A stretch of DNA of 64,000 bases. It comes from Lacibacter sediminis (GTDB lineage Bacteria > Bacteroidota > Bacteroidia > Chitinophagales > Chitinophagaceae). The notes beneath the pieces were generated by a model. It was not told the origin of the DNA. It did no database searches and was given only the letters and a program-made list of their open reading frames with translations. Numbering within the stretch: position 1 is the first letter of the stretch; each line of letters opens with the position of its first letter. The position numbers were made by a program, and so were the translations under genes. Below are positions 42,963 to 52,909 of the stretch, one piece after another. The stretch spans positions 2,418,001 to 2,482,000 of the forward strand of contig NZ_CP060007.1 of assembly GCF_014168535.1 (NCBI RefSeq). The letters are read 5' to 3'.

Positions 42963-43063
42963 ACCCTTAAAAATGGGAAAAATGGCAGGATTTATGCAAG
43001 TAAAAGTACGCTTGTAACTAAATTTATAATCTATAATTTTACAATATCCAAAATAGAAATCCC

Positions 43064-44095
43064 ATGAAAACCCGGTTATTTATTACCGCAACCACATTAC
43101 TCCTTTCTTACTGTGCAATTGCACAAAACAGGGACAGTTCCAATGCCGTTTTACAAAGAGCTATTACTGCCAAACAGGAGCGTCGTATCCAGCTGGCAAT
43201 TAATCTTTTTGAAACAGCGGTAAAATACGATACCACCAATATTGATGCCTTAAAAGCAATGGGTGAGTACGGTTTGGAAAGCAAGAACTACCGCCAGGCA
43301 GTTGATGCTTACACCCGCTGGCACAGATTAGAGCCAAACAACGAAGCAACTTTTCAGCAATTAGCAAATCTGTATTTTAATCTTGGTCGCCATAAGGATG
43401 CCTTGGAATTTACATCTAAATGGGAAAAGCTGCATAAGGATAAACCTATGCATTACATCTCTGGCATGTGTCATTATTATTTAGAAGATTATCCGCAAGC
43501 CATTAACCGATTATTGCATGCAGCAGAAACAGACACAGCAAATGCAGTGATGTATTATACTATTGGCCGCAGCTATTTGGAAATGGAACGTTACAAACAA
43601 GCTATTCCTTATTATCAAAAAGCAGCCAATGCCGATCAAAAGAATGCACGTTATCTCTATGAAATGGCAATGGTGTATTACGCCATTCCGGACGATAAGA
43701 ACGCCATTGCAACATTTGAACTTGCTGCTCAACGTGGCTGGCAACAAAATGCCGATTTCTTTGAAAGCTTAGCTTATTGCTACATGAACCTTGGCAACTT
43801 TGCAAAATCAACAGAGAACCTTGAAAAATCATTGGAAAAGCGTCCGCACAGTCAAACTGTTCGTTATGCATTGGCTGAGTCTTTATACAAAGGCGGCCGG
43901 TATAAAGATGCTATCGATAATTGGGACATGGTTTTACAAACAGATAATAAAAACGCCAGAGCTTTATATATGATTGGCATGGCCTATCAGAAAATGGGGC
44001 AGAAAGATAAAGGCATGGCGCTTTGCGATAAAGCAATTGAAATGGATCCATCTTTAAACAGCTTGAAACAGAAGAAAATGGACATGGGCATGTAA
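43064..44095 (+). CDS. Secreted tetratricopeptide-repeat protein
   Basis: 343 residues with signal peptide MKTRLFITATTLLLSYCAIAQ. From residue 30 to the end it is built of about eight 34-residue TPR units, for example YRQAVDAYTRWHRLEPNNEA, YYTIGRSYLEMERYKQAIPY and YMNLGNFAKSTENLEKSLEK. TPRs form protein-binding superhelices, so this is likely a periplasmic or outer-membrane scaffold with an unknown partner. It ends at its own terminator and is therefore probably independent of the amidotransferase gene that follows. Confidence 0.88.
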   Translation: MKTRLFITATTLLLSYCAIAQNRDSSNAVLQRAITAKQERRIQLAINLFETAVKYDTTNIDALKAMGEYGLESKNYRQAVDAYTRWHRLEPNNEATFQQLANLYFNLGRHKDALEFTSKWEKLHKDKPMHYISGMCHYYLEDYPQAINRLLHAAETDTANAVMYYTIGRSYLEMERYKQAIPYYQKAANADQKNARYLYEMAMVYYAIPDDKNAIATFELAAQRGWQQNADFFESLAYCYMNLGNFAKSTENLEKSLEKRPHSQTVRYALAESLYKGGRYKDAIDNWDMVLQTDNKNARALYMIGMAYQKMGQKDKGMALCDKAIEMDPSLNSLKQKKMDMGM

Positions 44096-44120
44096 GATTT
44101 TTTGCGATTCCTTATACGTT

Positions 44121-44154
44121 ACGGGCTGCAATTCTTTGCGGCCCGTTTCATTTT
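44121..44154 (+). terminator. Terminator after the TPR gene
   Basis: ACGGGCTGCAA pairs with TTGCGGCCCGT (44136-44146, one G-T pair) around a TTCT loop, followed by TTCATTTT. Confidence 0.75.
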
Positions 44155-44201
44155 ACACATTTGTGGATAGATGAACGACAGTTTAAACATCAAAAAATCA
44201 A

Positions 44202-44209
44202 TAAATTTG
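44202..44209 (+). promoter_or_regulatory. -7 element TAAATTTG just before the amidotransferase gene
   Basis: An exact TAnnTTTG box with six bases between its last G and the ATG at 44216. If the box is used, the mRNA would be almost leaderless, and the upstream ATG at 44171 could not be the start. Confidence 0.45.
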
Positions 44210-44215
44210 CCGTTT

Positions 44216-45058
44216 ATGGCAGAAGTAAAACAGGTACGTGTTGCAATATTGGATATGTATGATGGCGTTGCCAACCAAGGCATGCGCTGTATACGTGAAA
44301 TACTTAACAGCTTCGCCGATATTAATGTATTGGATCTGAGTTGGGATGAGTTTGATGTGCGTGGTAAATGTGCAGTGCCTGATATTTCTTCCTACGATGT
44401 ATTTATTTCTTCCGGTGGCCCGGGTAGTCCTTTGGAAAGCGAAGGCACAGATTGGGAGAATACTTTTTTCAAATGGGTAGGTGATGTAAAGGCGTGGAAT
44501 GATAATCCATTGAATGAACAGAAGAAGCCGGTGTTTTTTATTTGCCATTCTTTTCAACTCGCCTGTCGTTATTTTAATGTCGGAAATGTTTGTGTACGGA
44601 AGTCGACTGCGTTTGGTGTATTCCCGGTTCATTTTATTGGTAATGCCACCGATGAGGTTGTGTTTGGCGGATTGAAAGATCCGTTTTATGCAGTTGACAG
44701 CCGTGATTACCAGGTGATACAGCCAGATCATAAACATCTCAGGGAAATCGGTGCCACTTTGCTATGCATTGAGAAGGAACGTCCGCATGTTCCGTTTGAA
44801 CGTGCAATTATGGGTGTGCGTTTCAATCAATACATGATCGGTACACAATTTCATCCTGAAGCTGATGCTATTGGTATGAGCATGTACCTGCAAAAAGAAG
44901 ATAAAAAGAAAACGGTGATCGATAATCATGGATTTGAAAAATGGAAAAGCATGATCGAGCACCTGGAAGATCCTGATAAAATTCTGTTGACCTACTCTCA
45001 CATACTACCCAACTTTCTGCATCATGCTGTGTTTTCGATGGACACAGTAGAAGCATAA
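44216..45058 (+). CDS. Class I glutamine amidotransferase-like protein
   Basis: 280 residues from the ATG at 44216 (MAEVKQVRVAIL). An ATG at 44171 would add 15 residues but lies upstream of an exact -7 promoter box. The GATase fold shows VAILDMYDGVANQGMRCIREI, VFISSGGPGSPLES (oxyanion region), the nucleophile Cys110 in FFICHSFQLACRYF, and His213/Glu215 in GTQFHPEAD. The elbow is CHSFQ instead of the common CxGxQ. It would release ammonia from glutamine or hydrolyse a gamma-glutamyl-type amide. No synthetase domain is fused. It is followed by a probable ATP-grasp gene and, on the other strand, two amide ligases, so it may serve a small-molecule pathway. Confidence 0.88.
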   Translation: MAEVKQVRVAILDMYDGVANQGMRCIREILNSFADINVLDLSWDEFDVRGKCAVPDISSYDVFISSGGPGSPLESEGTDWENTFFKWVGDVKAWNDNPLNEQKKPVFFICHSFQLACRYFNVGNVCVRKSTAFGVFPVHFIGNATDEVVFGGLKDPFYAVDSRDYQVIQPDHKHLREIGATLLCIEKERPHVPFERAIMGVRFNQYMIGTQFHPEADAIGMSMYLQKEDKKKTVIDNHGFEKWKSMIEHLEDPDKILLTYSHILPNFLHHAVFSMDTVEA

Positions 45059-45110
45059 ATTCTTTCTCATGTAAATAAAATCAATACTTTTAGAAGACAA
45101 AACATCTTCT

Positions 45111-46304
45111 ATGGTTCCTTCAATCCGCAAGGCGTTTAACAGCAGTTTTACCAGTGAAAAATATGAAGCCTTCTTACAGGATCTGCACAGCAAATATCCG
45201 GGTGATATTGAATTTCGTGTAAGTGAAACACCTGTATTTGTTGATAAGGCTTTCAAACAAAAAATGCTTGATGCCTGTGAAAGTATTGTTGATGTTATCT
45301 GCAATGAAAAGTTCCTGGCAATGACGGAGCGTGCAATTCCTGCAGGCGAAAAAGTGCCGAATGAAAATAAACAATCGCACATGATCGCTTTCGATTTTGG
45401 TGTGTGCATGAATGAAGAAGGTGAACTGGAACCTCAACTGATCGAGATGCAGGGCTTCCCAACTTTGTTTGGTTTCCAGGTGTATTATCCTGAGGTGATT
45501 GAACGACATTTTCCGATACCTGCAAACTACAGTCAATACCTCAATGGTTATACAAAAGAAACGTACATTGACATGTTACGCAAATTACTCATCGGAAATT
45601 TGCCGGCAGAGAATGTTGTGTTACTCGAGATAAAACCTGAAGAACAAAAAACACGTATTGATTTCTCCTGCACAAAAGATTATACCGGTGTTGAAGTAGT
45701 TTGCTTGACCAAGCTTATTCAAGACGGTAAAAAATTATACTATTTAAAAGATGGAATAAAAACGGAGATCAAACGGATTTATAACCGCATCATTTTTGAT
45801 GATCTCAAAGCCAATAAAGAAAAGCTGGGTGATGTGGTGGATATCACACAAGACCTTGATGTGGAGTGGGTGCCTCATCCTAACTGGTTCTACCGTATCA
45901 GCAAATTCACGCTTCCGTTTATTGATCATCCATATGTACCGGAAACTTTTTTCCTGAACGAGATCAAACAATTGCCAACTGATCTGTCGAATTATGTATT
46001 GAAACCATTATTTTCTTTTGCCGGGCAAGGTGTGATCATTGATGTAACACAGGATGATATTGATGCTATTAAAGATCCGGAGAATTTTATTCTGCAGCGA
46101 AAAGTAAAATATGCTGATGTGGTTGAAACACCAGATGATCATGCGAAGGTTGAGATTCGTATGATGTATGTATGGCCCGATGGAGATGAGCGTCCGCATG
46201 CTGCTATTAATCTTGCACGCATGAGTAAAGGAAAGATGATTGGTGTGCGTTACAATAAAGATAAAACCTGGGTGGGTGGGAGTGTAGCGTACTTTGAAAA
46301 ATAA
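45111..46304 (+). CDS. Probable ATP-grasp-like ligase, possibly circularly permuted
   Basis: 397 residues, soluble, no signal. The C-terminal part has an ATP-grasp nucleotide site: YVLKPLFSFAGQGVIID (Lys and glycine loop, about residues 300-316), FILQRKVKYADVV, KVEIRMMYVW, and AAINLARMSKGK. The metal-ligand motif usually near the C-terminus is not obvious there. Instead, an N-terminal ELEPQLIEMQGFPTLFGFQ (about 105-123) has an E-x-Q resembling it, which would fit a circular permutation. I know no characterised relative. It lies 52 bases after the amidotransferase on the same strand, and convergent with a YbdK-type ligase. Confidence 0.6.
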   Translation: MVPSIRKAFNSSFTSEKYEAFLQDLHSKYPGDIEFRVSETPVFVDKAFKQKMLDACESIVDVICNEKFLAMTERAIPAGEKVPNENKQSHMIAFDFGVCMNEEGELEPQLIEMQGFPTLFGFQVYYPEVIERHFPIPANYSQYLNGYTKETYIDMLRKLLIGNLPAENVVLLEIKPEEQKTRIDFSCTKDYTGVEVVCLTKLIQDGKKLYYLKDGIKTEIKRIYNRIIFDDLKANKEKLGDVVDITQDLDVEWVPHPNWFYRISKFTLPFIDHPYVPETFFLNEIKQLPTDLSNYVLKPLFSFAGQGVIIDVTQDDIDAIKDPENFILQRKVKYADVVETPDDHAKVEIRMMYVWPDGDERPHAAINLARMSKGKMIGVRYNKDKTWVGGSVAYFEK

Positions 46305-46306
46305 AA

Positions 46307-46332
46307 CCCGTCTGATAATGATATCCGACGGG
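46307..46332. terminator. Hairpin between convergent ligase genes
   Basis: CCCGTCTGATA pairs with TATCCGACGGG across one mismatch and a four-base loop. T-rich DNA follows on the plus side only after a few bases, so it is a moderate terminator candidate. Confidence 0.55.
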
Positions 46333-46357
46333 CATTACTTTTATTTCTTCGTTTAAA

Positions 46358-47470
46358 TTAAGTTCCGCTCAAAAACTCTCCGCCTATATAATCCACAACA
46401 GCCGGAAGACTTTTTGTTTCTTCATATACCTTCAATTGCCTGTCGGCACCAGTGCCTCTCTCCAGCATAGTAGGGATGTAGTTGATTGCATGCCTGCATC
46501 CTAGTTCATCAACCACATCATCTACGAAATCTAAAAGCTCATAGATCAATGCACGTGTGTTGGTTTCTTCTTCTTTGCCAAAGTCGATCAAATAGCCATC
46601 AATACCGTAACGGCTTGCACGCCATTTATTTTCGTTGATCAAAGCACGTTGATATTGAATATAATTCATGTTCTTGTTCCGCAACTTATATAGCTTGGCT
46701 GTAATGCCCTGGAACAAAGCAGTGATCGCAATAGTTTCCATCACCGTCATTGGTACATCACAAATGCGAAACTCGATTGTATTAAAGAATGGATGTACAC
46801 GCAGGTCCCACCATATTTTCTTTGCATTGTCAATGCAATTGGTTTTGATCAACAGCGCAACATAATTATCGTATGCTTCAATACTTTCAAATGTTTCTGG
46901 TATACCTGTACGTGGAAATTTATCAAACACTTTTGTGCGGAACGATTTATAACCCGTCATCCTTCCTTCCCAAAAAGGAGAATTTGTACTGAGTGCATAC
47001 ACGTGTGGCAAAAAGTATCTTGCGCTGTTGGCTAAGTGAATCGCCATTTTCCTGTCTTCCATACCAACGTGAACATGCAAGCCAAAAATGAGATTACTTC
47101 TCGCAGCTTCCTGCAGTTCATTTACAATTTGATTGTAACGCACATGATCGGTGATGAGCTGATCCTGCCAATGACTGAAGGGATGCGTGCCACTTGCTCC
47201 TACTTTTAATCCAATGGTGCCAGCAATACCACTAATGGTTTTGCGTAGCAGCGATACATCTGCATAGGCTTCGTCAATATCCTTGCAAATGTCAGTGCCA
47301 ACTTCCACCACAGCCTGGTGCATCTCTGCCTTTACTTTGTCTTTAATTACTTTTTGGCCTTCGCTTACAATTTTCTGTTCATGGCTTTTTAATTCCCTTG
47401 TAATGGGATCATACACCATGTATTCTTCTTCAACACCTAATGTGAATTGTTTATAATTAATGTTACCCAT
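46358..47470 (-). CDS. Carboxylate-amine ligase, GCS2/YbdK family
   Basis: 370 residues, normal for YbdK. It starts with the ATP/Mg motif FTLGVEEEYMVYD. HQAVVEVGTDIC, ASGTHPFSHWQDQ, IFGLHVHVGMEDRKMAI (the metal/substrate His pair) and TIEFRICDVPMTVMET follow, all diagnostic of glutamate-cysteine ligase type 2 folds. E. coli YbdK has weak gamma-glutamylcysteine-forming activity; its true substrates are unknown. It is 14 bases downstream of the RimK-like ATP-grasp gene and surely co-transcribed with it. No glutathione synthetase is adjacent. Confidence 0.92.
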   Translation of the reverse strand: MGNINYKQFTLGVEEEYMVYDPITRELKSHEQKIVSEGQKVIKDKVKAEMHQAVVEVGTDICKDIDEAYADVSLLRKTISGIAGTIGLKVGASGTHPFSHWQDQLITDHVRYNQIVNELQEAARSNLIFGLHVHVGMEDRKMAIHLANSARYFLPHVYALSTNSPFWEGRMTGYKSFRTKVFDKFPRTGIPETFESIEAYDNYVALLIKTNCIDNAKKIWWDLRVHPFFNTIEFRICDVPMTVMETIAITALFQGITAKLYKLRNKNMNYIQYQRALINENKWRASRYGIDGYLIDFGKEEETNTRALIYELLDFVDDVVDELGCRHAINYIPTMLERGTGADRQLKVYEETKSLPAVVDYIGGEFLSGT

Positions 47471-47484
47471 TGTTGTTAATCAAA

Positions 47485-48438
47485 TTAATAAAGCGGTTGT
47501 TTGTTTGCACCACGTTTTACATATTCTCCCCATGTTAAATTATCTGCACCATCTTTTTGTTCAAGCGCACGTTCAATGGCATAGCTGGCGGCTGCTTCAA
47601 CTACCCAATCAAAATTTTCCTGACCTACGCTTGCAAGATCAGCATCAGGAGCGGGGTTGCAGAAATCAATTGCATAAGGAACGCCATCTCTCAATGCTAA
47701 TTCAACAGTATTAAAATCGTAACCGAGATAGTTGTTGATGCGGAGCACAATGTCTGTCATCATCTCCAACTTCTCAGCTGATGGTTGAAAATCGGCCACA
47801 TAACGCAAATGATGCGGGTTGCGTGGTTCATAACTCATAATGCGCACATGCTTGCGGCCAATGCAATAGCAGCGGTAATATTCTTCAAACACAATTTCTT
47901 CCTGCAACAACATTACCAACTGTCCGGTTTCGGCATGCTTTTCAAAAAACTCTTCAGCATTCCGGAGTTTGTATACGTTTTTCCAGCCACCACCGGCATA
48001 GGGTTTCATGTAAGCAGGAAAACCGATATAGTTGAACATGCCTTCCCAGTCCATTGGATAAGCAAGGTTGCTGAACGATTCATCTCCGGTATCATCAGGC
48101 GTTTCTTTTGAAGGAAGGATCACTGTTTTTGGAACAGGCACATCAATTTTTGTTGCAAGACAGTTATTAAAAAACTTATCATCGGCACTCCACCAAAACG
48201 GGTTGTTGATAACAGCGGTTCCGGTAATGGCTTCATTTTTTAAATAGGCACGGTAATGCGGTACATCTTGTGAAATGCGATCAATGATCACAGCATAACC
48301 GTTGTTGACACCCTGTACTACTTTATCAATACGTACAGGCTCCGCCATAATGCCTGGAATGTTTTTACTGTTGATCCTTTCAACAAAAGCAGTGGGAAAG
48401 GAGCGTTCTTTGCCATGAAGAATACCGATCTTTTTCAT
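47485..48438 (-). CDS. RimK/D-Ala-D-Ala-ligase-like ATP-grasp protein
   Basis: 317 residues from the ATG at 48438 (MKKIGILHGKERSFP); an ATG at 48480 adds an implausible tail. The pre-ATP-grasp domain covers about 1-110. The ATP-grasp core has FPAYMKPYAGGGWKNVYKL (Lys and glycine loop), MLLQEEIVFEEYYRCY (adenine-side Glu), and the Mg-ligand segment VELALRDGVPYAIDFCNPAPD near residue 265. It should join a carboxylate to an amine through an acyl phosphate. It is the first gene of a two-gene unit with the YbdK-type ligase and is divergent from the esterase gene. Confidence 0.85.
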   Translation of the reverse strand: MKKIGILHGKERSFPTAFVERINSKNIPGIMAEPVRIDKVVQGVNNGYAVIIDRISQDVPHYRAYLKNEAITGTAVINNPFWWSADDKFFNNCLATKIDVPVPKTVILPSKETPDDTGDESFSNLAYPMDWEGMFNYIGFPAYMKPYAGGGWKNVYKLRNAEEFFEKHAETGQLVMLLQEEIVFEEYYRCYCIGRKHVRIMSYEPRNPHHLRYVADFQPSAEKLEMMTDIVLRINNYLGYDFNTVELALRDGVPYAIDFCNPAPDADLASVGQENFDWVVEAAASYAIERALEQKDGADNLTWGEYVKRGANKQPLY

Positions 48439-48687
48439 GTGTTTATTTTTTATTGTTTTTTGGACACATAGAATAACCAAGCAATTTTGCCCAATTTGGC
48501 TGCTGAAATAATCATCTCCGGTTGGTGCAAAAAATGGTCTTTTGAATGGTTATTTCATATAAAATGTTTATGGTCTTGAAAATAATGTTGAAGCAGCAGG
48601 CAACCTTGTTGTTAATTATTGCTTTAATATAGTACACAATTCGCTAAGATTAACTTGCGCCGTAAAATAATTTTACCTGCATTTCCT

Positions 48688-48695
48688 TATTTTTG
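48688..48695 (+). promoter_or_regulatory. -7 element TATTTTTG just before the esterase gene
   Basis: An exact TAnnTTTG box with five bases between its G and the ATG at 48701, as in front of the amidotransferase gene. It predicts an almost leaderless mRNA, or use of a later ATG (48716 or 48725). No -33 TTTG is seen at the right distance. Confidence 0.4.
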
Positions 48696-48700
48696 AAAAT

Positions 48701-49507
48701 ATGCTTAAGGAGAAAATGAAGCACATGGTATTTGAATCGGTGCTGTTGAAGTCGGAGTTGCTTGAACGGGATGTGAAAGTTGATATGTATCTCCCCACGT
48801 CGGTACATGATCCGGCAAACATGAGTTTATTGCTGATTAACGATGGTCAGGATCTTCCCAAAATGCCGTTTATTGAAATACTGGAAGAGTTGTATGAGCA
48901 GCAAAAAATAACGCCTCTTTTTTGTGTGGGTATTCATTGCGGTGCCGATCGTAAAATGGAATATGGTATTGCCAGCCAGGCCGATTATCTTGGTCGTGGA
49001 GCAAAAGCAGGAGCCTATACCAACTTTATTTTTGATGAGTTACTTCCCTTCTTACGCAGTCAGTATAACGTACCACATTTTAAAGAAAAATCATTTGCAG
49101 GATTTTCTTTGGGAGGTTTAATGGCAATGGATATTGTATGGAACCATCCGCATGAGTTTAGTAAAGTGGGTGTGTTTTCCGGTTCGTTCTGGTGGCGGCA
49201 AAAAGCATACGAAGATGGTTATACTGATGAGGCCGATCGTATCATGCACAACCAGGTGAGAGATGGTGTTGCTGCGCCGTGGTTAAAGTTCTTTTTCCAA
49301 ACCGGATTACTTGATGAGAAACTTGACCGCAACAATAACGGGATCATCGATTCAATTGATGATGCAACAGACCTGATCGCTGAATTGAAAAAGAAAGGTT
49401 ATAGCGATGAAGCCATCCGTTATCTTGAAATGGAAGACGGTAAACATGATGTGCCAACCTGGGCAAAAGCGTTTCCAGAATTTTTGGAGTGGGGTTGGGG
49501 GAAGTAG
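48701..49507 (+). CDS. Esterase-family alpha/beta hydrolase (Fes/esterase D-like) with a calcium-loop motif
   Basis: 268 residues, no signal peptide. The hydrolase shows VDMYLP, LLLINDGQDLP (oxyanion strand), nucleophile Ser in AGFSLGGLMAMD near residue 132, FSGSFWW, and the catalytic His in MEDGKHDVPTW. Between the expected Asp strand and the His lies DRNNNGIIDSIDD near residue 209, which fits the EF-hand/dockerin loop spacing Dx[DN]x[DN]GxIxxxD. The family cleaves esters such as enterobactin or S-formylglutathione, or performs acyl transfer. Divergent from two amide-ligase genes, so it may remove or release an acyl group in the same pathway. Starts at ATG 48716 and 48725 are also possible. 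Confidence 0.87.
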   Translation: MLKEKMKHMVFESVLLKSELLERDVKVDMYLPTSVHDPANMSLLLINDGQDLPKMPFIEILEELYEQQKITPLFCVGIHCGADRKMEYGIASQADYLGRGAKAGAYTNFIFDELLPFLRSQYNVPHFKEKSFAGFSLGGLMAMDIVWNHPHEFSKVGVFSGSFWWRQKAYEDGYTDEADRIMHNQVRDGVAAPWLKFFFQTGLLDEKLDRNNNGIIDSIDDATDLIAELKKKGYSDEAIRYLEMEDGKHDVPTWAKAFPEFLEWGWGK

Positions 49508-49557
49508 TGTTTAATTATTTACGGTATTATTTTAATGATCGCTTAACATACTTAAAT

Positions 49558-49589
49558 AAAAAAGTCCCGAATAAATTCGGGACTTTTTT
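49558..49589. terminator. Bidirectional terminator
   Basis: A perfect 14-bp stem AAAAAAGTCCCGAA/TTCGGGACTTTTTT with a four-base loop, between the convergent esterase and receptor genes. Confidence 0.93.
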
Positions 49590-49606
49590 ATTGTAATACT
49601 GTTTTA

Positions 49607-52600
49607 TCAGAATGTATAACGGATAGTTGCCTGACCTCTCCAACGAGAGGCGTTATAAGCATCGCTTCTAACATCAAGAATGTCACCCGCAGTTCTATTA
49701 CTGAGATTTCTGTAAGTCATATTGGGTTTCAATTGACCATTAACTAATGTTGAGCTGTAATTGGTAGACTCAATTGTGATCAGTTGATATTGGTCAACGC
49801 CCGGTGTTCGATATACACGCCCCCAATTTCTGTTAAGCATATTTGTAAAATTGAAAATGTCGATAATAACAGATAGCTTATTATTTACATTTCCGGTTTT
49901 CAAAACAAAATCCTGCTGGATTCTTGCATCAACGATGTTACTGAAAGGTAAAGCCGAACCATTTCTTTCAGCAAATTGGCCTCTCCGTGAATTAAGATAT
50001 TTATCCTTGCTGATGTAAGCATCAAGTGCAGTCCACTGATCGGCTACTGAATACGTGGTACTACCCGATGTGTAAGGTACTGCCATTCGGCTCCAGTCAG
50101 CCAGATCTCTAGGAACATAAATCAGATCATTAGTTTCGTTGTTCACACCGTTTCTGTCATAAATAAGACTACGGCTGTAAACGTATGAATATGGTGATCC
50201 CGATTGACCGTTATAGAATGCAGTAATGGTAGTTGCAAATCTGTCTTTCAAATAAGAGAATTTTTTAGAAGCGTAAACGGTAATTCGGTGAAGTTGTGCA
50301 AAATCACTTCTACTCATTTGCAAATCACTTCTTCCCGTAGATGTTTCCATAAAACGCCAGTTGCTATTATTCTGGCTACTTGTACCATCAAATACACTAT
50401 AAGAATCGCCATAAGAATATATAGCGTTTGCTGCCCATCCTTTTGCGAACGCCTTGTCTACTGCAACGGAGAAGTTGTAAGAAAAGCCTTTTTGTTTTGC
50501 ATTTGTGATAAGGAATATACCTTCTGAATAAGGATTTTGTGATCCTGCTACAGTTCCATTCATATCAATACGGTTATAGGTAGTACTGTTAGAAAGGTAT
50601 GTCGTTTGACCAAGTATATTCGTTAAGCCTTTGTAAGCAAATACGTTCTTGTAATCAACTTCATTTATATTTTTCTGATACAACAAATCAACTGTCAGAT
50701 TCCATCTGTTGCCCAGTTCTTTTTCAATGCCTAATGAAGTTTTCAACACTTTTGGCAGTTTAAAGTTAGCTGCAATGAGATCGATCTGGCCACTTGGTGG
50801 TCTGAAAGTTTGACCAACATCCTGGGGATCGTATTGACCGAATGGATCAGGTCTGAAAGTAAAGCTGGGAAGTGCGTTAATTGCTGCACTGTTCAGAGAA
50901 ATTCCACCTACGTTTACACCCGTATTGTTGTAAGCCCCGCCAGGCCATACCAAGGGAATACGGCCTGTAAACATACCTATTCCACCTTTAATGCGAACTT
51001 TTTGTTCACGGATGTTATAGGTAAAACCTATTCTTGGAGATATACTCATCTGTGCATCTGGTCTTCTTCCTGATCTTGCGCCCAGTAAATCATGATATAA
51101 ACTTATCTGGGGAATTGCGTACTTATTGAAAAATGTATCCTCATTCGGAATTGTAAGGAACTCAAAATTATCAAGACGAACGCCGTAGTTTAATTGGAAA
51201 TCATTTGTAATGTCCCATTGGTCCGCTACAAATATTCCCATGCGGAGGGTGTTGAATTTTGCTGCAGCATTGCTACCATCACCATCTTTGTCATCTATTA
51301 AAGAAAAAGAACGGTTATATGTAGCGGGTTTAGCGTTATTCAACCAATCCAAAGCGCTGTTATAAGTATAAGATCCATAATTCTGACGAATAAACAAATT
51401 GTAAGAATTGCTAAACTCAAGATCAACACCTGCTTTTAATTCATGGCCTTTACCTAAACGAAATTTTAGCTCGTCAAAGAATGCGACGTTGTTTTGAATC
51501 AATTGGTTTCCTGTTGAAAACTCTTCTGTTCCAAAAACGTAACTAGTTCCGTTTATAGAATTCAAAGTAACACGTGGGAAATCTTTACCAAGGGCATCTC
51601 TGTCATCATTCACATTAGTATAGGTGAGTAATGCTTTGTTTGAAATGTTGTTCGTGAAATTTGTCAGCAATTCAATAGATGCAGAATGCGTCTTGCTTGG
51701 AAATAAATAACCTCCGTTAAAGAATCGTAACGTGGTTGACGAGCTCGGCGTTGTTAAACTACGCTCAGAGCCAGTATAACGATACGATACATTCAACTTA
51801 TTTTTTGTATTGAGATTGAAGGTAAGTTTTGCTGCAATCTTATTACTTACAACCAGATCAGGAATGTTTTCCCAATCTCCCGGTTCATATCCAAATCCGC
51901 TGAGCTTGTTACGAATAAGATTTATAGTATCACGGAATGTGTTTACACGAAAAGTAGTTGCGTCGAAAGGCTGCGGTCTTTCGTCGTCCTGACGTTCAAA
52001 GCTAACAAAGAAGAAAGCCTTATTCTTAATAATGGGGCCACCCAGCGTAATACCAAAAGTCTGCGCAGAAAAGCCTGGTAATTTTGTAGCTGCCGCTTTT
52101 GTGCCTGATGGAGTTATACCTGCTAATGTTTGATTTCTAAAAATGTAATAAGCAGAACCAGTGAACTTGTTAGTACCGCTTTTGGTTGTTGCATTTATTG
52201 ATCCGCCGGTAAAGTTACCCAACGAAACGTCATAAGGCGACACGCCCACCTGAAAACCGTCAATTGCATCAATACTAATGGGGGGTGATCCTGTTTGACC
52301 GCCATTTGCTCCTGTTTCACTAATCCCAAATACGTCATTGTTTACAGCGCCATCAATCATCAATTGATTATATCGGTTGTTTTGTCCTGCAATTGAAATA
52401 CCACCGCCGTAGGTCACACGTGCTTGTGGAGTTAATCTAACGAAATCGGTCAGTTGTCGACCAACGGTAGGAAGGTTCGCCAAGCGATCTCTTCCAATGT
52501 TTGTTTCCATACCGCCTTTAGCGCCTGATCTTGTACGGCTTCCCGTAACCACAATTTCCTGCAGGGTTACATTAGCAGGCGCTAGTTGAAACTCCAAACG

Positions 52601-52909
52601 GAAAGTTTCACCAAGATTCAGGTAGATTTCTTCCTGTTTTTGTGCCTGTAAACCAGCAAAAGTTACCTCAATTGTGTAAGGCCCACCGGGAGCGATATTA
52701 GATAACGTGAAGGCACCACGTGAAATAGTGGTAGTTTGGTAAACAGAGCCGGTTGGTTGATGTTTAGCAACCACGGTTGCACCAACCAAAGGTTCTTTTT
52801 TGTCTGATAATACAACACCGGCTAAGTTACTTGTAGTAACCTGTGCAGCAACAGCAAGTGTGAAGAACATTGCCAGTACCGCCAGCAGCAGTTTTCTGAT
52901 TTTTAGCAT
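49607..52909 (-). CDS. TonB-dependent receptor, Oar-like, with N-terminal CarboxypepD_reg domain
   Basis: 1100 residues with signal peptide ending TLAVAAQ. A CarboxypepD_reg domain (about 25-115: LAGVVLSDKKEPLVGATVV) leads to a plug containing VVTGSRTRSG, YNQLMIDGAVNNDVFGI and FTGGSINATTKSGTN. A long 22-strand-type barrel ends in WRGQATIRYTF with a terminal Phe. The DGAVNN..G and IDAIDGFQVGVSPYDV segments are typical of the Oar branch of outer-membrane receptors. The ligand is unknown. No SusD partner is adjacent, so this is not a polysaccharide-utilisation SusCD pair. Confidence 0.93.
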   Translation of the reverse strand: MLKIRKLLLAVLAMFFTLAVAAQVTTSNLAGVVLSDKKEPLVGATVVAKHQPTGSVYQTTTISRGAFTLSNIAPGGPYTIEVTFAGLQAQKQEEIYLNLGETFRLEFQLAPANVTLQEIVVTGSRTRSGAKGGMETNIGRDRLANLPTVGRQLTDFVRLTPQARVTYGGGISIAGQNNRYNQLMIDGAVNNDVFGISETGANGGQTGSPPISIDAIDGFQVGVSPYDVSLGNFTGGSINATTKSGTNKFTGSAYYIFRNQTLAGITPSGTKAAATKLPGFSAQTFGITLGGPIIKNKAFFFVSFERQDDERPQPFDATTFRVNTFRDTINLIRNKLSGFGYEPGDWENIPDLVVSNKIAAKLTFNLNTKNKLNVSYRYTGSERSLTTPSSSTTLRFFNGGYLFPSKTHSASIELLTNFTNNISNKALLTYTNVNDDRDALGKDFPRVTLNSINGTSYVFGTEEFSTGNQLIQNNVAFFDELKFRLGKGHELKAGVDLEFSNSYNLFIRQNYGSYTYNSALDWLNNAKPATYNRSFSLIDDKDGDGSNAAAKFNTLRMGIFVADQWDITNDFQLNYGVRLDNFEFLTIPNEDTFFNKYAIPQISLYHDLLGARSGRRPDAQMSISPRIGFTYNIREQKVRIKGGIGMFTGRIPLVWPGGAYNNTGVNVGGISLNSAAINALPSFTFRPDPFGQYDPQDVGQTFRPPSGQIDLIAANFKLPKVLKTSLGIEKELGNRWNLTVDLLYQKNINEVDYKNVFAYKGLTNILGQTTYLSNSTTYNRIDMNGTVAGSQNPYSEGIFLITNAKQKGFSYNFSVAVDKAFAKGWAANAIYSYGDSYSVFDGTSSQNNSNWRFMETSTGRSDLQMSRSDFAQLHRITVYASKKFSYLKDRFATTITAFYNGQSGSPYSYVYSRSLIYDRNGVNNETNDLIYVPRDLADWSRMAVPYTSGSTTYSVADQWTALDAYISKDKYLNSRRGQFAERNGSALPFSNIVDARIQQDFVLKTGNVNNKLSVIIDIFNFTNMLNRNWGRVYRTPGVDQYQLITIESTNYSSTLVNGQLKPNMTYRNLSNRTAGDILDVRSDAYNASRWRGQATIRYTF

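Follow-up and report, generated by a model that had tools for sequence, protein, structure and literature searches.

Five adjacent genes of Lacibacter sediminis, lying within a 64,000-nucleotide stretch of contig NZ_CP060007.1 (positions 2,418,001 to 2,482,000; hereafter the window), belong to a gene set whose order is shared by distant families of the Bacteroidota, and this shared order is the main evidence that they form one functional unit. They encode a glutamine amidotransferase-like hydrolase (GATase), two ATP-grasp ligases (AG1 and AG2), a YbdK-type carboxylate-amine ligase (GCS2) and an alpha/beta hydrolase (EST). On balance, we regard it as probable that their products make a small pseudopeptide of gamma-glutamyl type in a single pathway, following a logic similar to that of glutathione and glutathionylspermidine synthesis. 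The five consecutive open reading frames described in the initial annotation, an earlier reading of the same DNA, were all recovered, and only the GATase start shifts (44171 rather than 44216). The genes, in window coordinates, are as follows.

44171..45058, + strand: GATase, class-I glutamine amidotransferase-like hydrolase (PF00117, 32.5 bits, cut-off 22.8; Cys125/His228/Glu230; the start may be 44216)
45111..46304, + strand: AG1, ATP-grasp ligase of the glutathione synthetase / glutathionylspermidine synthetase / YgiC fold (from the predicted structure; without a Pfam or NCBIfam match)
46358..47470, - strand: GCS2, YbdK-type carboxylate-amine ligase (PF04107, 197.4 bits; NF010039, 517.9 bits)
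47485..48438, - strand: AG2, RimK/LysX-like ATP-grasp ligase (predicted fold, Z 18.0 to RimK; frame open to 48480)
48701..49507, + strand: EST, alpha/beta hydrolase of the esterase family (PF00756 Esterase, 88.1 bits, cut-off 22; Ser136 and His249 invariant)

Conservation of gene order across the phylum

A survey of 296 Bacteroidota genomes from 140 genera detected AG1 in 93 genomes, representing 65 genera. Loci were then compared in 40 of these 93 genomes, picked to span 25 families, with an unbroken run defined by gaps of less than 400 bp. The order EST2-AG2-GCS2-GATase-AG1 was unbroken in nine of the 40 loci, distributed over six families, where EST2 denotes a second alpha/beta hydrolase that is absent from the window and belongs to the set elsewhere (one member matches PF00756 at 22.6 bits, cut-off 22). 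Counting shorter runs, AG1 shared a same-strand run with other genes of the set at 20 loci (the nine full runs and 11 more), and GATase lies directly upstream of AG1 in the operons of other families. At four of the other 20 loci AG2 and GCS2 also share the strand of AG1, from which a gene of the M29 peptidase type separates them. Of the 25 families, 15 have GCS2 near AG1, 14 have AG2, 10 have GATase, nine have EST2 and five have EST; the commonest unrelated neighbours of AG1 reached five. The initial annotation had grouped the five genes and had proposed a neighbourhood search across the phylum, with dispersal in other genomes as the outcome that would speak against the grouping; the search instead returned an operon in distant families.

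We therefore place the set beyond chance because its order repeats in other families, and not because of the window itself. The notion that the genes are chance neighbours, each drawn from a separate known pathway, draws some encouragement from the many genomes of the window's family, Chitinophagaceae, in which a GATase-AG1 block lies far from a GCS2-AG2-EST block, but the recurrence of one order in unrelated families, against a best other neighbour present in just five of 25, leaves it scarcely credible. EST was considered as a phylum-wide member and rejected, since it stands beside AG1 at six of the 40 loci (five of 25 families), a frequency that does not exceed that of the best unrelated neighbours.

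A core of three ligases with accessory hydrolases

Searches for the other members were extended to 26 AG1-bearing genomes, mostly ones in which set members were missing at the AG1 locus, a choice biased against GATase; AG2 was found in 25 of them, GCS2 in 22 and GATase in seven. Thus, where AG1 stands apart from the other genes, the genome usually still carries AG2 and GCS2. In four loci of four different families (L078, L086, L092 and L093), a protein of 339–342 amino acids (aa) occupies the place of GATase, and the one member scanned matches Peptidase_M29 at 64.7 bits (cut-off 27); no GATase match was obtained in these four genomes. Because AG2 and GCS2 persist where GATase is absent or substituted by the M29-type peptidase, the core of the set consists of three ATP-dependent ligases, AG1, AG2 and GCS2, accompanied by accessory hydrolases. 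The five-gene unit of the initial annotation is hence linked as claimed, with an invariant part reduced to the three ligases, a GATase that is often missing or replaced, and EST2 as an addition.

The catalytic triad previously read as Cys110/His213/Glu215 corresponds to Cys125/His228/Glu230 from the longer start (44216 being an internal ATG 15 residues into the 44171 frame) and is invariant in 18 aligned rows, in which Gln129 is also conserved. This intact triad, the conserved glutamine and the Pfam grouping of GATase with amidotransferases of the GuaA/TrpG type agree with a genuine glutaminase that supplies a ligase with ammonia, giving a product with a terminal carboxamide. We nevertheless doubt this explanation, given that GATase occurs in so few of the chosen AG1 genomes while AG2 and GCS2 remain, that the M29-type peptidase takes its place at four loci, and that its nucleophile elbow reads Cys-His-Ser-Phe-Gln, whereas common class-I amidotransferases have Gly at the third position. 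A ligated product with accessory hydrolases consequently describes the set better than the 'amidated' metabolite first suggested, the gamma-glutamyl-type alternative offered with it being the favoured one.

Fold and family assignment of the enzymes

Scanning of the window with Pfam models (reporting E 0.1) and NCBIfam models returned no family of either collection for AG1, and the eukaryotic-type glutathione synthetase models of both likewise gave no match. By sequence, YgiC was the only PDB protein matched by an AG1 profile, at E 0.05. A structure predicted from 60 rows (the window protein and relatives from named loci; model range 1–397) reached a mean predicted local distance difference test score (pLDDT) of 92.7, and its fold assignment carries a Foldseek E of 6.4e-15. 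All 28 Foldseek matches at E 0.001 fell within one superfamily, comprising glutathione synthetases, a homoglutathione synthetase, glutathione-synthetase-like effectors, a putative glutathionylspermidine synthase, YgiC, YjfC and Cp1B. Structural comparison of this model with VIA extended over the whole length of the fold against Escherichia coli YgiC (Z 25.7, root-mean-square deviation (rmsd) 3.4, 341 residues aligned), followed by YjfC (Z 25.2), the glutathionylspermidine synthetase GspS (Z 24.2, 344 aligned), eukaryotic glutathione synthetases (Z 23.9 for the plant enzyme 5oes and 23.6 for 2hgs) and Cp1B (Z 22.4), before dropping to 8.4 for LysX. In a profile comparison with YgiC and YjfC, itself weak (probability 31.8%, E 4.9e-4), the Asp, Glu-x-Asn and Lys metal- and ATP-binding residues of YgiC pair with AG1 positions as D95/D102, E112/E115, Q114/N117 and K298/K302, which would set AG1 Gln114 opposite YgiC Asn117 at the metal/ATP site. 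RefSeq names the products of E. coli ygiC and yjfC peptide-spermidine ligases, and experimental work on them (Pederick et al. 2023) is cited in PMC12568646. Taken together, the predicted structure identifies AG1 as a new family inside a known superfamily of ATP-grasp ligases.

AG2 likewise had no Pfam match at E 0.1, and its NCBIfam matches, to rimK_fam and LysX, stayed below cut-off (TIGR00768, 25 bits against 143.4). Its model, built from 13 rows, is poorer than that of AG1 (pLDDT 71.5) and aligned with RimK (rmsd 3.6, 263 residues) and LysX/ArgX (Z 16.7), with graspetide ligases also among the best folds; on this model, AG2 is predicted to have an ATP-grasp fold of the RimK/LysX type. The assignment of two ATP-grasp-type proteins in the initial annotation is thus supported.

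The nearest folds of AG2 also bring protein tagging into consideration, in which AG2 and GCS2 would extend a protein by amino acids or a short tag, AG1 would terminate the chain and the hydrolases would take the tag off. RimK targets a ribosomal protein for modification and LysX/ArgX have the carrier protein LysW as their substrate, and the ligases of the set co-occur with peptidases (M29, M17). On the other hand, the open reading frames of at least 100 aa around the set (shorter ones were not looked for) include no recurring small carrier protein, and the nearest folds of AG1 act on small peptides, making tagging an unlikely function.

GCS2 exceeds the cut-offs of PF04107 (21 bits), NF010039 (PRK13515; 371 bits) and TIGR02050 (285.7 bits, cut-off 176.4), and its profile matches YbdK (1r8g) at 3.7e-57. 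Its best curated model, above cut-off, is that of a carboxylate-amine ligase, and it falls below the cut-offs of the glutamate-cysteine ligase models. In EST, Ser136 and His249 occupy invariant columns in 17 rows. A siderophore function suggested by its likeness to enterochelin esterase was discarded, as EST scores 53.6 bits against the PRK10439 model and does not reach the cut-off of 222.

Synthesis of glutathione or a close thiol, with GCS2 as glutamate-cysteine ligase and AG1 as glutathione synthetase, would accommodate the breadth of the GCS2 family, which includes glutamate-cysteine ligases, as well as the eukaryotic glutathione synthetase fold predicted for AG1. A GshB-type synthetase (PF02955) had no match in the window's own genome (0 of 1; 9 of 14 control genomes were positive), so AG1 could fill that step. 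Against this, the set holds a third ligase, AG2, whose conservation equals that of GCS2 and AG1, GCS2 passes the carboxylate-amine ligase model and misses those of glutamate-cysteine ligases, and the genome carries the bacillithiol synthase BshC, so that bacillithiol is the likely thiol. Passages of PMC6282198 place gshA-B in Cyanobacteria, Proteobacteria, Eukarya and one actinobacterium, do not list these genes for Bacteroidetes, and predict bacillithiol in that phylum. Ordinary glutathione is an unlikely product because the genome has BshC and no GshB match, and we give a thiol pathway of this kind very little weight.

Distribution within Chitinophagaceae

Of 117 genomes of the window's family, 86 carry GATase, AG1 and GCS2 are present in 85 each, and 82 have a match to AG2. 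Two of these AG2 matches are distant proteins with 34% identity (G014 C2:501115-502068 and G113 C1:1043377-1044333) from a genus without the other four genes. EST matched in 103 genomes at E 0.001, with strong full-length matches in 77. All five genes occurred together in 72 genomes, none in 30 and a part of the set in 15. Seven genomes keep GATase, AG1 and GCS2 without AG2, and EST is missing from all seven, compared with three of 75 genomes with AG2. In the window's family, losses of EST thus tend to accompany those of AG2; at the level of the phylum EST is the weakest member. Two full-length copies of AG1 were seen in G067 (C1) and in G075 (C23 and C158).

Pairwise co-occurrence in the 117 genomes gave Fisher p values of 5e-17 to 3e-27. 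These were not accepted as proof of linkage, as co-occurrence shrinks to few independent events on an RpoB tree of 104 genomes; twelve genomes with a missing or broken rpoB (G012, G016, G033, G040, G043, G057, G059, G074, G086, G092, G095 and G105) and one whose row was under 1000 aa (G032) were left off the tree. The fewest changes required were five for AG1, four for GATase, three for GCS2, seven for AG2 and nine for EST. Genomes without the set sit on this tree as a clade of 23, two genomes together and one on its own; whole-set absence thus falls in three places, with all five genes gone each time, and AG2 and EST were lost together in about three further places.

At 80 named AG1 loci, many on short contigs, the retrieved DNA contained GATase in 64, GCS2 in 18, AG2 in 16 and EST in 13. 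The best 80 of 584 AG1 relatives are named as Chitinophagaceae (80% identity for the nearest), other Bacteroidetes groups and uncultured bacteria. Among 72,556 plasmid records, AG1, AG2 and GATase had no match, and relatives of GCS2 were found on 72.

Proposed pathway

The observations comprise the gene set, its shared order, the modelled folds and the candidate metal- and ATP-binding residues of AG1. From these we infer that the five genes serve one pathway, with substrates, order of steps and hydrolase roles taken from the chemistry of the enzyme families. GCS2 would most likely form the first amide bond, on the side-chain carboxylate of a glutamate-like substrate, after which AG2 may add a further acidic or amino-acid residue. 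AG1 would activate the carboxylate of the resulting peptide as an acyl phosphate and join it to an amine or amino acid, and GATase, or the M29-type peptidase in some lineages, together with the alpha/beta hydrolases, could trim, recycle or release the product.

Several observations weigh against a single gamma-glutamyl pathway of this kind. AG1 has no same-strand set neighbour within 400 bp at 20 of the 40 phylum loci. Among the 26 genomes searched for the other members, GCS2 was not found in four and AG2 in one. AG1 misses every Pfam model of the glutathione synthetase/GspS/YgiC superfamily, including GSP_synth (PF03738), and its profile match to YgiC is the weak one given above. Moreover, no pairwise association was significant among independent pairs on the RpoB tree, the best being AG2-EST (five pairs, p 0.0625).

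The fold of AG1 points to polyamines and small amines as candidate acceptors. Tentatively, and as a possibility well short of the probable, a large part of the Bacteroidota might make a peptide-polyamine conjugate, a thiol-free counterpart of glutathionylspermidine, in which AG1, as founder of a new ATP-grasp ligase family, would link a polyamine to a gamma-glutamyl peptide, with GATase or the M29-type peptidase acting as the corresponding hydrolase. The wider reading, a gamma-glutamyl-type pseudopeptide whatever its final acceptor, remains the one we prefer. If it is true, a widespread pathway in probable bacillithiol users would constitute a new element of core small-molecule chemistry: AG1 is carried by nearly a third of the Bacteroidota genomes surveyed (93 of 296) and by 85 of 117 in the window's family, although Pfam has no model for either ATP-grasp protein.

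Locus layout and neighbouring genes

In the window, GATase and AG1 on the + strand converge head-on with GCS2 and AG2 on the - strand, EST diverges from AG2, and the set is flanked by a TPR gene on one side and a TonB receptor gene on the other. Relatives favour the AG2 start at 48438 over 48480. One further feature lies between the convergent genes.

46307..46332, no strand: probable bidirectional terminator hairpin between AG1 and GCS2 (-13.7 kcal/mol, z -4.26)

One of 200 shuffles was as good as this hairpin, which is T-rich on both strands and likely serves as a bidirectional terminator for AG1 and GCS2. Over 43000–51000, promoter-like patterns numbered 26 against 24.5 expected by chance and terminator-like patterns eight against 6.8; these counts are at chance level and do not point to promoters between the genes.

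The 40 family stretches compared were picked for carrying set genes and not at random. L028 and L029 read EST, EST2, AG2, GCS2, GATase, AG1; L026 has this arrangement minus EST2, and L030 has it minus EST. The convergent layout of the window was also found in its sister genome (L044), L102 and L138, and for this reason looks like a lineage-specific inversion; the divergent and convergent units of the initial annotation are real in the window and give way to an operon elsewhere.

A TonB receptor of one sequence cluster (49607–52909) adjoins EST tail to tail in the window. The same cluster stands beside EST in L013, L016, L019-L023, L032, L044 and L048; in all, the arrangement occurs at 11 of the 23 family loci that contain AG2 and have sufficient flanking sequence. 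It was rejected as a set member, being convergent with EST and absent from other lineages.

Other proteins recur near the set. In some families these extra enzymes resemble its own members in kind: a third ATP-grasp protein (403 aa, PF13535) was observed in L066, L067, L068 and L101, and an M17 aminopeptidase in L066-L068. A protein of ~480–630 aa, which we take to be an amidohydrolase, lies between the two blocks or beside AG1 (L013, L016-L021, L031, L032; L080, L081, L083, L097, L099), and what we assume to be an amidase-signature-like protein lies between the blocks in L013, L016, L031 and L032. In some lineages AG1 is located ~0.2 kb upstream of rpoB (G018 C1:1644414-1649631; G116 C1:3575301-3580483), and the AG2 block has a neighbour that is presumably rpoC (L028, L033, L034).

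Comparison with known systems

The kinds of enzyme in the set are already known; what is new is the AG1 family and the combination, for which we found no described product. No named pathway was found for the set, as the initial annotation had supposed, and no paper could be recognized by title or abstract as describing the five genes, although the 2009 amidoligase survey may show them. In that survey, by Iyer and colleagues, comparative genomics reportedly placed ligases of several folds beside unrelated peptidases.

Among single enzymes, AG2 shares the predicted fold of RimK, LysX and ArgX at 14–15% identity, but no protein acceptor was seen for the set. GCS2 qualifies as a YbdK carboxylate-amine ligase under all three models given above; two plasmid-borne relatives that were inspected (Paracoccus and Spirosoma) have no annotated ATP-grasp neighbour, whereas GCS2 belongs to a conserved operon with two ATP-grasp ligases. 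Cp1B, the structural relative of AG1, belongs with Cp1D to the fungal E-64 pathway, which, according to passages of PMC12568646, dispenses with nonribosomal peptide synthetases and uses stand-alone ligases to join an acid, an amino acid and an amine. As described in these passages, that pathway differs in being fungal, in a first step on epoxysuccinate and in having no GCS2 or RimK-like enzyme.

Glutathionylspermidine synthesis (GshA, glutathione synthetase and GspS/Gss), together with YgiC/YjfC, resembles the set in its successive ATP-dependent amide ligations from a gamma-glutamyl-type start, and the last-type ligase, represented by GspS and YgiC/YjfC, shares the predicted fold of AG1 over its whole length. 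The amidase domain of Gss parallels GATase or the M29-type peptidase as hydrolase partner, although the hydrolases of the set are unrelated to it. The set differs in a YbdK-type first ligase, an extra RimK-like ligase and an AG1 that lies outside the Pfam models of the superfamily, and nothing found for the set points to cysteine, spermidine or a thiol.

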